From Marinoscillum sp. 108 (GTDB taxonomy: Bacteria; Bacteroidota; Bacteroidia; Cytophagales; Cyclobacteriaceae), in assembly GCF_902506655.1 (NCBI RefSeq), contig NZ_LR734808.1, forward strand, positions 1,054,001 to 1,118,000: a stretch of 64,000 nt of DNA, written 5' to 3'. Position 1 is the stretch's first letter; each line of letters opens with the position of its first letter. Positions 19,237 to 25,342 of this stretch are shown in pieces. The translations under genes were made by a program, and so were the position numbers. The notes beneath the pieces were generated by a model. The model saw only the letters and a program-made list of their open reading frames with translations. It searched no databases and had not been told where the DNA came from.

Positions 19237-20517
19237 TCAATCGCAATTCTCTATAATGGCTGCAAGATAATCATATAATGCCTGATGGATATCCGGCCTT
19301 ACGTTGAGCTGATAAATAGCCTTACTTTCTCTGGTAGGATACACCCGGTTTGAAAGAAAAACAAATAGTAAGTCATTGGCGGGATCAGCCCATACCAAGG
19401 TGCCGGTATACCCCGTGTGCCCGTAGCTTTCGAAAGAAGCCGATTTTGCCACACTACTGATCAATGAGTCATATTCGAGAAGTGGTTTATCAAACCCCAA
19501 ACCTCTTCGGTTCCCTTTATTGGCATACTGATAGCTGGTAAACACGTCAATAGTTGATGGTTTCAGATACTGCACTCCGTTCAAACTCCCATTATTTAAC
19601 CACATCTGCCACAAACTAGCCACGTCTTCCGCAGTTCCGAATAACCCCGCATTTCCCGAAATACCCTTCATCAAAATGGCCCCCTCATCATGTACCCTGC
19701 CATGGATAGGTTCATACCTGAAAAAAGAATCAATCTCCGTAGGCACTATTCTGTCCAAGGTAAATTTTTCAGCCGGGTTAAAAGTGAGTGCACTCAGTCC
19801 CATGGGTTGGTAGAACACCTCCTGCAGATAAACCTCAAAAGGTCTTCTGGTCAATCGCTGCACCATCTCAGGCACCAGATAAAAGAACAAACCCGAGTAG
19901 ACATACTGTGGCTCCCTGTTCACCGGAGCCGCTTTGATGTACTTCTTTATTCTTTTGTAAAACTCTTTGTGAAGAAACATCCCTTCAGCAACCTTGTAGG
20001 GATGGTCCTCTGATCGGCTGTCTGAAATAGTATGCCCCTTGTAGCGACCATTATTTCTTCTGATCTCCTCATAAAACTTAATCCAGCTCTGCAGTCCAGC
20101 CTGATGCGCCAAACATTGCCTCAGCGTAACCTTACTGATCTTTCGCCAACCTAATCCATCCACATAGTTCCTCAGGGGCTCGTCCAGATCTATCAGACCA
20201 TCCTCGTAAAGCTTCATCAAAGCCAGAGTAGAGGCCATGACTTTGGTCACTGAGGCCATATCAAAAAGGTCAGAAGTATAGACAGCATCAAGGCTATCGT
20301 AAGTCTTATAGCCATATGATTTTAATAAGATTGGGTTTCCCCTGTGTGAAGCATACACTACGCACCCCGGAAAGGCGCGCTGCTGAATTGCGTTAATCAC
20401 AATTAAGTTCACCTTTTTTTGTAAATCTCCCAACAAATACGAGGTGTCTTGTTGACTAAAACACTGATTTTGAAAAAAAATTGATAATAAAAATAAAATG
20501 ATTGTTTTATATGCCAT
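19237..20517 (-). CDS. Exported serine hydrolase, beta-lactamase/penicillin-binding fold (class C type)
   Basis: A 426-residue protein with a signal peptide (MAYKTIILFLLSIFFQNQCF, cleavage near residue 21). The catalytic SxxK is Ser89-Val-Thr-Lys92 in DMASVTKVMAS. The second motif reads YVYSG, where many relatives have YSN. The third is HTGYTGT near the C-terminus. These mark the serine beta-lactamase-like family, which includes esterases, D-aminopeptidases and carboxypeptidases that are not resistance enzymes. It lies 77 bases upstream of the symporter gene on the same strand and may supply amino acids to it from peptides outside the membrane. Its start is only 38 bases from the divergent serB-serA start. 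Confidence 0.88.
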   Translation of the reverse strand: MAYKTIILFLLSIFFQNQCFSQQDTSYLLGDLQKKVNLIVINAIQQRAFPGCVVYASHRGNPILLKSYGYKTYDSLDAVYTSDLFDMASVTKVMASTLALMKLYEDGLIDLDEPLRNYVDGLGWRKISKVTLRQCLAHQAGLQSWIKFYEEIRRNNGRYKGHTISDSRSEDHPYKVAEGMFLHKEFYKRIKKYIKAAPVNREPQYVYSGLFFYLVPEMVQRLTRRPFEVYLQEVFYQPMGLSALTFNPAEKFTLDRIVPTEIDSFFRYEPIHGRVHDEGAILMKGISGNAGLFGTAEDVASLWQMWLNNGSLNGVQYLKPSTIDVFTSYQYANKGNRRGLGFDKPLLEYDSLISSVAKSASFESYGHTGYTGTLVWADPANDLLFVFLSNRVYPTRESKAIYQLNVRPDIHQALYDYLAAIIENCD

Positions 20518-20555
20518 TTACGTGCTTAATTTTAAGCCTCAGAGAAAGCGAACTT

Positions 20556-22448
20556 ATGGAAAATCACAAACATTTTGTAATTGATTTCGATAGCACGTTC
20601 ACCCGGGTGGAGGCTTTGGATGTCTTGTGTGAGATCTCTCTCAGGGGTCAGCCAGATGCCCAGGAGTCCCTTGCCAAGATCAAAGAAATTACTGATCTCG
20701 GCATGGAAGGCAAAATATCCTTTCGGGAATCTCTTGAAAACAGATTGGAAATTCTCAGAGCACACAAATCTCATTTACCCGAATTAATCGCCAGACTAAG
20801 CGATCAGGTCTCCGATTCATTCCAGAGAAACAAAGAATTTGTAAGAAAATACGCCGGTCAAATTTATATTTTGTCCAATGGATTCAAAGATTTTATTGTT
20901 CCCATTGTAGAGCACTTTGGTATTACTGAAGACAGGGTTTTTGCCAATGAATTTACCTATGACGAAGCGGGCAATATTGTTGGATTTAACAAAGAAAACC
21001 TACTTTCTGAAAATAACGGGAAACCCAACAAAATACGTTCGATGAATCTCAAGGGTGAAGTCTATGTGCTTGGGGACGGATATACTGATTACGAAATCAA
21101 AAAGGCTGGAATTGCGCATAAGTTTTACGCCTTTACAGAGAATGTGAGAAGGGCCAATGTGCTCCAAAACGCAGATCATGAAGCGCCTAATCTAGATGAA
21201 TTTTTATATGTAAATAAAATGGAAAGAGCACTCTCCTATCCCAAAAGCCGAATCAACGTATTGCTGCTTGAAAACATCCATGAACATGGGATCAAGAAAT
21301 TACAAGAAGAAGGCTACAATGTCAAAGTGCATCCTGCGGGAATGGACGAAGACGAACTCATAGAAGCCATTAAGGATGTATCCATCCTTGGCATCAGGTC
21401 TAAAACTCAGGTGACCAAGAAAGTACTTGAAAGCGCCAACCGACTATTGGCTGTTGGAGCTTTTTGTATTGGCACCAACCAAATCGACCTGCTCACCTGT
21501 CAGCGCAAAGGGGTAGCTGTATTCAATGCGCCTTTCTCCAACACACGCTCCGTGGTGGAAATGGCCATTGCCGAGCTCATTATGCTGATGAGAAACCTTC
21601 CTGACAAGTCAGTTTCTATGCATCAGGGCAAGTGGAATAAGTCAGCCAGTGGAAGTTTTGAAGTGAGGGGAAAAACGCTCGGTATCATTGGATACGGAAA
21701 CATAGGCGCACAGCTTTCTGTGGTGGCAGAGTCCATTGGTATGAAGGTGCAGTTCTATGACCTGGAGGAGAAACTTGCACTTGGCAATGCAGTACAGTGC
21801 AAAAGTCTTGAAGAGCTCCTCAGCAGTTCTGACATGATCACCCTGCATATAGATGGCAGAAAGGAGAATAACGGATTTCTAACAGAGAAGCATTTTTCTC
21901 AGATGAAAGACGGTGTAATCTTTCTCAACCTTAGCCGTGGACCTGTTGTAGATATAGCTGGTCTAAAAAAATATGTACTTACCGGAAAGATCAGAGGGGT
22001 GGGTGTGGATGTGTTCCCGGAGGAACCTTTGAGTAACAACGATGAATTTATTTCTGAATTACGGGGTTTACCTAATACGATCCTTACGCCACACATTGGT
22101 GGTAGTACGCTGGAGGCTCAGGAAAACATTGCTGATTTTGTGCCTGGTAAGATTATGGAATATATTAACACCGGATCTACGAGCAATAGTGTGAATTTTC
22201 CGAATATCGTGTTGCCTATGCTGAAAAACGCACACAGGTTTATACACATTCATCGGAATGAGCCCGGAGTTCTGGCCAAAATAAACCATGAACTGGCCGC
22301 ACACAATTTGAATATTGTGGGTCAATACCTAAAAACCAATGAGGAAATAGGGTATGTAATTACTGATATCAACAAAGATTATGATGAGGAAGTAATTAAA
22401 AATCTTAAATCCATTAAGGAAACCATTAGATTCAGAGTTTTATATTAG
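20556..22448 (+). CDS. serA: Fused phosphoserine phosphatase / D-3-phosphoglycerate dehydrogenase
   Basis: A 630-residue bifunctional protein. Residues 1-210 form a HAD phosphatase of SerB type: motif I DFDST (Asp10, Asp12), motif II SNG (107-109), Lys159 in NKIRSM, and motif IV GDGYTDYE (Asp174, Asp178). Residues about 232-545 are a 3-phosphoglycerate dehydrogenase with the NAD loop GYGNIG (379-384), the catalytic Arg region in FLNLSRGPVV, Glu in VDVFPEEP, and His in TPHIGGST. Residues about 560-630 are an ACT domain (HIHRNEPGVLAKINHELAAHNLNIVG), the usual site of serine feedback. It could catalyse the first and last steps of serine synthesis. The ATG at 20556 fits the HAD start; the frame extends to 20502. 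Confidence 0.93.
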   Translation: MENHKHFVIDFDSTFTRVEALDVLCEISLRGQPDAQESLAKIKEITDLGMEGKISFRESLENRLEILRAHKSHLPELIARLSDQVSDSFQRNKEFVRKYAGQIYILSNGFKDFIVPIVEHFGITEDRVFANEFTYDEAGNIVGFNKENLLSENNGKPNKIRSMNLKGEVYVLGDGYTDYEIKKAGIAHKFYAFTENVRRANVLQNADHEAPNLDEFLYVNKMERALSYPKSRINVLLLENIHEHGIKKLQEEGYNVKVHPAGMDEDELIEAIKDVSILGIRSKTQVTKKVLESANRLLAVGAFCIGTNQIDLLTCQRKGVAVFNAPFSNTRSVVEMAIAELIMLMRNLPDKSVSMHQGKWNKSASGSFEVRGKTLGIIGYGNIGAQLSVVAESIGMKVQFYDLEEKLALGNAVQCKSLEELLSSSDMITLHIDGRKENNGFLTEKHFSQMKDGVIFLNLSRGPVVDIAGLKKYVLTGKIRGVGVDVFPEEPLSNNDEFISELRGLPNTILTPHIGGSTLEAQENIADFVPGKIMEYINTGSTSNSVNFPNIVLPMLKNAHRFIHIHRNEPGVLAKINHELAAHNLNIVGQYLKTNEEIGYVITDINKDYDEEVIKNLKSIKETIRFRVLY

Positions 22449-22533
22449 TTTAGTCAGATATTTCAATAAAAACCAAGTCCCAATCCGCAATAACCGTTGT
22501 AATTAGTAAATTCGTGTTGTAGATTAGTTGCCA

Positions 22534-22923
22534 ATGAATCACCATTCACCGCTTTGGAAATCGATATCATCTTTGAAAGACCTCAATCAAGTGATTGAAG
22601 GCTCTCGTTTGAAACCAGCAATGGTTTTTAAGCACAGAGCTTCATCTCCTGAAAGTATTGAGAAAAAGATAGAGCTAGAAAATGGCTGGAATATTTCCAG
22701 TGATATGATAGACGTTTATCTTGTCGATGATATGAAATCCAAAGACGTCTCCAGAGAAATTTCAGAAATAGCGGGCATCAATCATGAATTCCCCCAGATT
22801 GTGCTATTTGCGGATGGCGTGACCATGTACGATGAATCACATGACATGATCAGTGTGAAGAAAATCAAACTTGCACTAAAAATCGTCAACAGAACCTTCA
22901 AGTGGATGGAGACCAGGGCATAA
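22534..22923 (+). CDS. YtxJ-like (bacilliredoxin-type) protein lacking the active-site cysteine
   Basis: A 129-residue thioredoxin-fold protein. The match to YtxJ/DUF2847 rests on the strand plus His motif VFKH (31-34), the central segment with INHEFPQIVLFADG (family: HESPQ), and the C-terminal SHDMIS (family: SH..I). In YtxJ the motif after VFKH continues STRC. Here it reads RASS, placing Ser38 where the redox Cys should be. The whole protein contains no cysteine, so it cannot act as a monothiol bacilliredoxin. It may be a structural or binding relative. The ATG at 22534 is preferred over the TTG at 22528. It follows serA by 85 bases on the same strand. Confidence 0.75.
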   Translation: MNHHSPLWKSISSLKDLNQVIEGSRLKPAMVFKHRASSPESIEKKIELENGWNISSDMIDVYLVDDMKSKDVSREISEIAGINHEFPQIVLFADGVTMYDESHDMISVKKIKLALKIVNRTFKWMETRA

Positions 22924-23133
22924 AAAAAGCTTTCGGAATCCGAAAGCTTAATGCTATAAAGGTCGTGTTGATAAACCCCTAAATAATAAGGATTTGAGCT
23001 GTGAAATAGGTCAAAGATCCACTGTTGTCCTGAAATCTTTCGATGACGAGGCCCTGATGGAGACCACCAGGGTGAGGCCCAATTTTGCTACCCCACTTGG
23101 CTCGGTATTGTTTTAGTGTTAGGTTTAAAAACA
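22922..23133 (-). ncRNA. Candidate structured small RNA ending in an intrinsic terminator
   Basis: This 262-base gap has no ORF but much structure. A perfect 11-bp hairpin (22927-22937 with 22939-22949, one-base loop) is followed by T7 only on the minus strand (22928-22922), so it terminates minus-strand transcripts. No minus-strand coding gene lies upstream of it, which points to an RNA gene within the gap. Long-range pairing closes the element: TGTT, TAAACC and TAA at 22966-22982 pair with 23119-23133. Inside it GAGC (22996-22999) pairs with GCTC (23100-23103), and there is a hairpin at 23052-23072. Length (about 200 bases) and shape recall 6S RNA, but I cannot assign a family. The 5' end is uncertain. 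Confidence 0.55.
23097..23127 (+). promoter_or_regulatory. Possible promoter of the serC-like gene
   Basis: TTG (23097-23099), 20 bases, then TAGGTTTA (23120-23127), one mismatch from the Bacteroidota -7 element TAnnTTTG. The start codon of the aminotransferase follows 58 bases later. The site lies inside the 5' part of the candidate minus-strand RNA, so the two transcription units would face each other here. Confidence 0.35.
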
Positions 23134-23185
23134 ATATTACCTTCAATAGCGAAACAAACTTAATCAGTACTATTTCAAATTCTCA

Positions 23186-24259
23186 ATGCAACATAAAATT
23201 TATTTCACACCGGGACCTTCGCAAATCTTTTATACGGTAAACGACCACATGAAAGAGGCCTTTCAGAAAGACATCATGTCTATCTCTCATCGCAGTGCCA
23301 CTTTCCAAAATCTTTTTGCTGAAGTAAAAGCTGACCTAAAAAGCTTGCTCAACCTTCCGGATCACTATGATGTCTACTTCATTTCTTCTGCCAATGAGAT
23401 CTGGGAGAGAATCATTCAAAGCCTGGTAGGCAATGCGTCCCATCACTTCGTGAATGGCTCCTTTGCTGAAAAATTCTATCAGTTTGCCACAGATTACAAA
23501 AAAGAGTCTACCATAACCCGAATGAGCGATGGTCAGGACTTTGACAATCTGGAGGTGCCGGAAAACACTGAGCTTATCTCAGTCACACTCAACGAAACCA
23601 GCATTGGATATGCCTTCAATGCTAACAGCATTTACCAGCTGCGAGAGCAGCACCCCGACAAGCTCATTGCTGTAGATGGAGTGAGTGCTTTTCCTGCCGT
23701 TCCCTTTGATTTCTCTAAAGTGGATACCGCCTATTTTTCTGTGCAGAAATGCTTCGGACTTCCTGCCGGATTAGGGGTCTGGATCGTGAACCCTACCTGT
23801 TACCAAAAAGTGGAAAAACTTCGGAAAAACGGAGTTGTTACGGGTAGTTATCATGATTTACTGCAACTAAAAGCCTCAGGAGATAAAAATCAAACTCCTG
23901 AAACCCCCAATGTTTTGGGGATCTTCTTGCTCGGGAAGGTGGTAAAGGATATGCTATTCAGATCAGCCAAGCTGATACAAAATGACACCACCTACAAAGC
24001 CGCCCTACTCTATCAGGCGATTGAAAAATCTTCTGTATTGAGCCCATTCGTCGCACGAAAAACCAATCAATCAAAAACCGTGGTAGTCGCCAAATGTGAG
24101 GGTGGCAATGCCGACATCCTCGCCCGCTTCGGAGAGCAGGGCTGGATCATAGGCAAAGGCTATGGTTCATATAAAAGCGACCATATACGCATTGCCAACT
24201 TTCCTGTTCACAGCAAAGAGCAGATAGAACAGCTGTCTGACTACATCAGCAAGACCTAA
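23186..24259 (+). CDS. serC: Class V aminotransferase, phosphoserine aminotransferase (SerC-like)
   Basis: PLP-dependent aminotransferase of 357 residues that would convert 3-phosphohydroxypyruvate and glutamate to phosphoserine and 2-oxoglutarate. SerC-type features are the N-terminal YFTPGPSQIFYTV, SHRSATFQ, the PLP aspartate in AVDGVSAFPAVPFDFS, the Schiff-base Lys in FSVQKCFGLPAGLGVWIV, and the C-terminal GYGSYKSDHIRIANFP. It lies downstream of the fused serB-serA gene, with the YtxJ-like gene and the structured RNA in between. Together the two enzymes cover the whole phosphorylated serine pathway. Start at the ATG at 23186. Confidence 0.88.
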   Translation: MQHKIYFTPGPSQIFYTVNDHMKEAFQKDIMSISHRSATFQNLFAEVKADLKSLLNLPDHYDVYFISSANEIWERIIQSLVGNASHHFVNGSFAEKFYQFATDYKKESTITRMSDGQDFDNLEVPENTELISVTLNETSIGYAFNANSIYQLREQHPDKLIAVDGVSAFPAVPFDFSKVDTAYFSVQKCFGLPAGLGVWIVNPTCYQKVEKLRKNGVVTGSYHDLLQLKASGDKNQTPETPNVLGIFLLGKVVKDMLFRSAKLIQNDTTYKAALLYQAIEKSSVLSPFVARKTNQSKTVVVAKCEGGNADILARFGEQGWIIGKGYGSYKSDHIRIANFPVHSKEQIEQLSDYISKT

Positions 24260-24415: not shown

Positions 24416-25342
24416 ATGTATAAGTACAATAAAATTCTTGTAGGCCTCGATCATACAGAGACGGATCTGGATTTGGTGAAAGCTGCCTCAGATGTTTGTG
24501 AGTTGTCAGGATCAAAAGTTGTATACTTTGTAAATATCATCAAGGACATCAACCTGCCGGAGAAGCTCATGAAGGAGTTTCCTCACATTCTTGATCAGGC
24601 TATTGAAGAACGGAAAAACAATCTCCAAAAGACGGTTACGGATCATTTTAAATTCGAAGGCGCAGAAGTAGTGGTAAATGTGATTGTGGATCAGGGCCAG
24701 GTCACAAAGACCCTTCTCAAACACGCTTCTGCTGAGAAAATAGATTTGGTCATCCTGGGTAGGAAAAATGAGAAAAAAGGTGGTGGAGTGTTGGTGAATA
24801 GAATTGCCCGCCGAGCAGGCTGTTCTCTCCTCATTTTACCAAAAGGCTCCCAATTCAGCGTAAGCAGTGTTCTGGTACCTACAGACTTCTCCGCTTACTC
24901 CAGAAGTGCCATGGAAAAGGCAACCATGCTGGTGAAAAAATCAAAAAAACCAGGAAAGATTATTGTGCAAAACGTCTATCAGGTTCCAGTGGGCTACCAC
25001 TATACCGGCAAGAGTTTTAAGGAGTTTTCAGAGATCATGAAAGACCATGCCAAGAATGATTTTGCTAAATTCACTAAGAGCATGAAATTGGATGGTGTCA
25101 ACATAGAACAGATTTACACTCTGGATAAGGATGAAGACATCATATCAGACATCTACAAAGCTGCCAAAAAAATCAAAGCCAGCCTGATCGTTATCGGGGC
25201 GAAAGGCCGCACCGCCACTACCGCCCTATTTATTGGTAGCAAAGCAGAAAAATTGATTCACGTGGATGAAGAGATTCCTATGCTGGTGGTGAGACCAAAA
25301 GGGAAAAATGCCGGCATAATAGAATACATCAAGGAGCTCTAA
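24416..25342 (+). CDS. Universal stress protein with two Usp domains
   Basis: A 308-residue soluble protein made of two UspA-type domains (about 1-140 and 148-300). The second keeps the nucleotide-binding motif G-2x-G-9x-G-S as GAKGRTATTALFIGS (about residues 261-275). The first has a degenerate version (GRKNEKKGGGVLVNRI). Tandem Usp proteins bind ATP or AMP and adjust metabolism or survival under stress; the client here is unknown. It has its own promoter and ends inside a strong terminator, so it is a single-gene unit facing the convergent MarR gene. Confidence 0.9.
   Translation: MYKYNKILVGLDHTETDLDLVKAASDVCELSGSKVVYFVNIIKDINLPEKLMKEFPHILDQAIEERKNNLQKTVTDHFKFEGAEVVVNVIVDQGQVTKTLLKHASAEKIDLVILGRKNEKKGGGVLVNRIARRAGCSLLILPKGSQFSVSSVLVPTDFSAYSRSAMEKATMLVKKSKKPGKIIVQNVYQVPVGYHYTGKSFKEFSEIMKDHAKNDFAKFTKSMKLDGVNIEQIYTLDKDEDIISDIYKAAKKIKASLIVIGAKGRTATTALFIGSKAEKLIHVDEEIPMLVVRPKGKNAGIIEYIKEL

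Follow-up and report, generated by a model that had tools for sequence, protein, structure and literature searches.

A probable 6S RNA gene, conserved in relatives, in the gap between brxC/ytxJ and serC of Marinoscillum sp. 108

Introduction

6S RNA acts as a global brake on transcription; its size is usually about 160-240 nt. The housekeeping sigma factor of the Bacteroidota is unusual. Classical 6S RNAs (RF00013; Escherichia coli, Bacillus subtilis) are composed of a closing stem, a central bubble and an apical arm. Among the families of Rfam, the closest to the locus described here are 6S-Flavo (RF01685) and Bacteroidales-1 (RF01693), the latter bearing the remark '6S-Bacteroidales suggested'. 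For B. thetaiotaomicron, PMC7366714 reports detection of the 6S RNA along with product RNAs of two classes. Among the papers covered by our literature search, none dealt with 6S RNA in Cytophagales or Algoriphagus. Wehner 2014 may already list 6S RNAs of this order, and we therefore do not claim a first discovery.

The window analysed here is a stretch of 64,000 nucleotides from Marinoscillum sp. 108. NCBI taxonomy places Marinoscillum in the Reichenbachiellaceae; the family sampled in our analysis, which we take to be the Cyclobacteriaceae of GTDB, also includes genomes matched to Algoriphagus and Cecembia. A first-pass annotation had proposed that the gap between a YtxJ-like gene and serC harbours a structured RNA gene on the minus strand. 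Our results support this proposal and indicate that the gap very probably holds the 6S RNA gene of the organism, running leftward from a TAnnTTTG promoter at the serC start region to a hairpin on the brxC/ytxJ side; a role on RNA polymerase is what we infer for its product.

Structure of the predicted RNA gene

The gap comprises 262 bases between brxC/ytxJ, encoding a bacilliredoxin (22528-22923, PF11009), and serC (23186-24259, plus strand, PF00266). As the first-pass annotation had remarked, a minus-strand protein gene is not within reach: serC and a universal stress protein gene (24416-25342), both on the plus strand, occupy the 2 kb that follow on the right. The features of the RNA gene are as follows.

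22922..23150, minus strand: 6S-type RNA gene with a predicted transcript of ~229 nt, matched by covariance models R2 and R3
23155..23162, minus strand: -7 promoter box TAAGTTTG, which fits TAnnTTTG
23139..23150, minus strand: closing stem, 5' arm, partner 22953-22963 in the fold
22953..22963, minus strand: closing stem, 3' arm, partner 23139-23150
23122..23127, minus strand: 5' arm (UAAACC) of the P2 helix, which lies beneath the bubble (helix 1 of alignment A3)
22972..22977, minus strand: P2 helix, 3' arm GGUUUA, partner 23122-23127
23104..23121, minus strand: central bubble, 5' side, single-stranded in the consensus and carrying the conserved motif UAACA
22978..22995, minus strand: central bubble, 3' side, with an alternative 9-bp hairpin (22987-22995 with 22973-22981)
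22996..23103, minus strand: apical arm of several helices, the first pairing being GAGC/GCUC (23100-23103 with 22996-22999)
23052..23074, minus strand: hairpin in the apical arm (helix 7 of A3)
22922..22949, minus strand: intrinsic terminator, composed of a stem-loop (22949-22927) and the T-run (22928-22922)

The two ends of the RNA (~23150 and the T-run at 22922) were inferred from the -7 box, the closing stem and the terminator. Concerning the promoter, a scan for sigma-70 sites gave 1 site against 2.9 expected; E. coli promoters were thus regarded as inapplicable and the Bacteroidota consensus TAnnTTTG was used. In Flavobacterium, this sequence is the box of the housekeeping sigma factor and occupies -12 to -5, as stated in a section of PMC9723704. 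Applying this spacing to the box at 23162-23155 predicts a start at ~23150. Among 97 loci of relatives, TAnnTTTG begins 36-22 nt upstream of the conserved core in 48, whereas random windows of the same 97 loci gave a mean of 0.58 and a maximum of 4. Over a wider stretch, the box was found in 59/97 loci (control 1.9, maximum 6).

The closing stem was evaluated by pairing flanks in the same 97 loci. Mean energy was -22.4 kcal/mol with a locus's own flanks and -12.6 kcal/mol with foreign flanks, and in 69/97 loci the own partner ranked in the best 5%. At the downstream end, the hairpin 22927-22949 has a 10-pair stem and is followed by a T-run (22928-22922) on the minus strand only, in agreement with the earlier reading of it as a minus-strand terminator. 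Two terminator-like sites were found in 22400-23400 (0.7 expected). A T-tract lies within 100 nt past the core in 92/97 loci, compared with a mean of 38.0 and a maximum of 52 for random placement. In several relatives (L007 to L019 and others), the T-tract directly follows the closing stem, so that this final stem seems to serve as the terminator as well.

With a predicted promoter and terminator of its own and a length of ~229 nt, the locus has in silico the makeup of an independent 6S gene, and its closing stem, central bubble and apical arm reproduce the classical layout. The length of 170-210 bases proposed earlier was too short, the outer closing stem and the promoter having been missed. 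The long-range arms then drawn at 22966-22982 and 23119-23133 contain the conserved P2 helix, and did not include the outer stem 23139-23150/22953-22963. The inner GAGC/GCTC pairing and the nested hairpin were correctly recognized.

Folding energies were compared with those of 200 shuffled sequences. The minus strand of 22924-23185 gave z = -4.50 (0/200 shuffles equally good) and the plus strand z = -2.66 (3/200); a shorter minus-strand segment, 22950-23140, gave z = -2.23 (3/200). Folding energy by itself is only suggestive, and the proof comes from relatives.

Conservation and covariation among relatives

A DNA search for the gap found it in 5/5 other genomes of the genus, but in only 7/54 further genomes of the family. 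We used three covariance models: R1, built from 18 relatives with the window included; R2, built from 97 sequences; and R3, built from 10 sequences excluding the window and its genus. Alignment A2 omits L015 and the second, shorter reading of L017, and alignment A4 omits the window's genus, L007 and L013. R1 matched 92/98 family genomes, each in a single copy, with E values from 4e-14 to 4e-34. The six genomes in which R1 found no match were G010, G039, G041, G045, G111 and G129, and four of these have a completeness of at least 98%; R2 gave only one weak match among them (E 0.7), and the RNA in these genomes is lost, diverged or unassembled. In a sample of the order, R2 matched 32/194 genomes, of which 16 belong to seven families other than that of the window. 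In a sample of the phylum, R1 matched 36/296 genomes, and 28 of these lie outside the window's family.

The 97 loci consist of the 92 family matches without G056, whose match lies at a contig end, plus G002, G004, G005, G246, G319 and G326, and include all 18 training sequences of R1. In alignment A3, which holds these 97 sequences, 89.8% of the pair cells are standard pairs, compared with 74.6% after shuffling, and 31/38 pairs display changes on both sides. The covariation score was 0.486 against 0.197 for shuffled and at most 0.110 for slid alignments; A3 had been fitted to the model structure, and this works in favour of that structure. A MAFFT alignment of the 18 sequences gave 87.2% versus 75.0% standard pairs and a covariation of 0.397 versus 0.179, with the structure taken from the same alignment. 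As for individual helices, P2 (helix 1) has both-side changes in 7/7 pairs and 90.0% of its cells paired, and helix 2, which opens the apical arm, has 99.7% of its cells paired. Helices 3-8 of the apical arm covary; in helix 7, both-side changes occur in 5/5 pairs and 95.8% of the cells are paired. G-U cells (369) outnumber A-C cells (84), which indicates that the functional RNA is that of the minus strand and that selection acts there. The proposed gene thus corresponds to a conserved, covarying, single-copy RNA on the minus strand; covariation and conservation among relatives, either of which could have spoken against the first-pass annotation, both bear it out.

Three MAG contigs labelled Spirosoma fluviale (L135, L190 and L213) match the motif of the RNA; these contigs may be mislabelled, or that species may have the RNA. 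Near the RNA in relatives, two other Rfam elements were found above cut-off, DUF805b (L026:2493-2528) and Flavo-1 (L069:2446-2523).

Relationship to known 6S RNAs

At gathering cut-offs, Rfam gave no match anywhere in the window. In a loose search, the locus was matched by 6S-Flavo with 19.2 bits (E 8.6) and by Bacteroidales-1 with 15 bits (E 5.7), far from the respective cut-offs of 85 and 60, and these weak matches cover the correct span and strand. RF01685 and RF00013 gave nothing at E<=10 when scanned over the window's own genome, and among 59 relatives none exceeded the cut-off of RF01685 and none that of RF01693. Below the cut-offs, RF01685 (E 1.1e-4 in G009) and RF01693 (E 5.9e-4 in G018) did match relatives at the places found by R1. 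At E<=10, RF01685 also matched 4/14 control genomes, two of them archaeal and none above cut-off, and single weak matches therefore mean little.

The models of relatives were more informative. On the window, R2 matched 22970-23132 with 124.6 bits, and R3, although built without the window's genus, matched 22970-23131 with 102.9 bits (E 3.9e-20). From the 28 R1 hits outside the family, 22 loci were fetched and 20 were given to Rfam (L073 and L076 were left out). Seventeen of the 20 share position and strand with a match to 6S-Flavo (16) or Bacteroidales-1 (1), and five of the 17 exceed the Rfam cut-off. L063, an R1 match, scored 184.4 bits as Bacteroidales-1, and L057 is matched by both families. 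No Rfam family was found at E<=0.01 in L060, L077 and L078. R3 recovers all 17 coinciding loci, L060 and part of L077. Profiles thus recognize one another in both directions, that from Rfam to the relatives being below cut-off but significant. As judged from these profile comparisons, the gap RNA is homologous to the Bacteroidota 6S RNAs 6S-Flavo and Bacteroidales-1. The 6S resemblance, noted earlier from closed-rod shape and length, is therefore one of descent, since the models of relatives find annotated loci of both families. Taking into account that neither Rfam threshold is reached, we place the RNA beside, and not inside, RF01685 and RF01693.

Motifs around CCGAG, GUGGAU, CUCAAAUC and GGGGUUU are common to 6S-Flavo and the window RNA, but the flavobacterial R1 matches span ~115-130 nt compared with ~160 for the core. 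The layout of Bacteroidales-1 agrees with that of the window RNA, and in its Rfam consensus a T-tract comes after the terminal stem, whereas the window's genus has a separate hairpin after the closing stem. With classical 6S RNA the architecture is shared; in sequence, RF00013 has no match in this genome at E<=10.

The best match of the loose Rfam search was ar15 (RF02345), an alphaproteobacterial family, at 22922-23037 of the minus strand (38.3 bits, E 3.6e-6, cut-off 40), which would make the RNA an unrelated trans-acting small RNA. The alignment rests on the terminator and an A/T-rich part of one sequence. In 20 family loci, ar15 was absent at E<=1, whereas 6S-Flavo or Bacteroidales-1 was found at the locus in four, and we see virtually no chance that this identification is correct.

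Genomic context and the serC gene

In the window, the RNA is convergent with serB-serA and brxC and head-to-head with serC. The open reading frame at 20502-22448 fuses a putatively SerB-like phosphatase domain of the HAD type (PF12710, residues 26-197) to a dehydrogenase of the SerA type that also has an ACT-like domain. Together with serC, this fusion gathers serine synthesis in one cluster around the RNA. This raised the question of whether the RNA is a cis-antisense or leader element, on either strand, that controls serC and resembles 6S RNA only incidentally. The RNA is antisense to any transcript entering serC, its promoter and the start region of serC overlap, and the plus strand too folds better than most shuffles. 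In addition, serC lies head-to-head with the RNA in 42/97 loci, always in the same orientation. On the other hand, structure and sequence are kept in the 55/97 loci in which serC was not seen within 1.5-2 kb, and the excess of G-U over A-C cells places selection on the minus-strand RNA. Homologues in flavobacteria and Bacteroidales likewise argue against this explanation: loci L057-L078, from flavobacteria and other groups, gave no serA, serC or brxC match. Control of serC as the principal function is therefore very unlikely. The first-pass annotation was correct that the RNA lies antisense across the probable serC leader in the window, but this is not general.

The linkage extends to serA, which is tail-to-tail with the RNA in 34/97 loci and, in one more locus, upstream on the same strand. 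None of these genes was seen in 44/97 loci. The counts for serC and serA are lower bounds, being based on flanks of 1.5-2 kb and on identity cut-offs. A SerC scan of the named genomes gave no match. As serC adjoins the RNA in only 42/97 loci, any role specific to serC can be no more than secondary, and the partial linkage, along with the lack of serine gene matches in L057-L078, makes the serine linkage a feature of the family and not one that defines the RNA. A dual role, in which the RNA would act on polymerase globally as a 6S RNA and locally on the serine genes whose transcription it opposes, is unlikely.

One record in the set, L236 (PBTY01000035.1, titled Rickettsiales MAG NP5), equals contig G004:C36 of the window's genus in length (84,748 bases), carries the serA, brxC and serC of that contig and is probably mislabelled.

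Proposed mechanism

By analogy with 6S RNAs in general, the open central bubble within the rod would mimic an open promoter, and the rod would occupy the housekeeping RNA polymerase holoenzyme while growth is slow or stationary. Once nucleotides are available again, the polymerase would copy a short product RNA from the 5' strand of the bubble into P2, and 23104..23121 is accordingly our candidate template region for product RNAs. Synthesis of the product RNA would open P2. This may allow the 3' side of the bubble to form its own 9-bp hairpin, in which the freed GGGGUUU would pair with AAAUCC, much like a hairpin described for E. coli 6S RNA in an excerpt of PMC8876501. With P2 opened, the polymerase would be released.

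When the window sequence was folded alone, the best fold (-71.1 kcal/mol) lacked P2 and contained the 9-bp hairpin, and forcing P2 gave -68.2 kcal/mol. The lone-sequence fold thus already favours the release-hairpin state. The mean energy of the 3'-bubble hairpin was -3.8 versus -1.7 for shuffled sequences. Its covariation, 84.4% versus 84.0%, does not go beyond the shuffles and speaks neither for nor against the hairpin.

A relative of 6S RNA need not bind the holoenzyme. The actinobacterial Ms1 is structurally related to 6S RNA yet binds core polymerase, as described in part of PMC9130861, and the window RNA could have an altered role of this kind. Its homology, however, extends to 6S-Flavo and Bacteroidales-1, and PMC7366714 reports product RNAs for Bacteroides. 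Such RNAs mark a 6S RNA as bound to the holoenzyme. We give an altered role very little credence, and regard holoenzyme binding as the expected mode of action.

Discussion

The RNA in the gap represents an established RNA class, here in a group missed by the Rfam thresholds. With Rfam's present models, the genome of the window and the 59 tested relatives would be annotated as being without 6S RNA. Through the sequences collected here, the Rfam families 6S-Flavo and Bacteroidales-1 become linked as a single group, and with the new models the RNA is recovered throughout the family as well as in seven further families of its order. The predicted product-RNA region and the promoter can now be tested in Bacteroidota. 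Should the dual role be true after all, serine synthesis in these organisms would be coupled to growth state via one locus.
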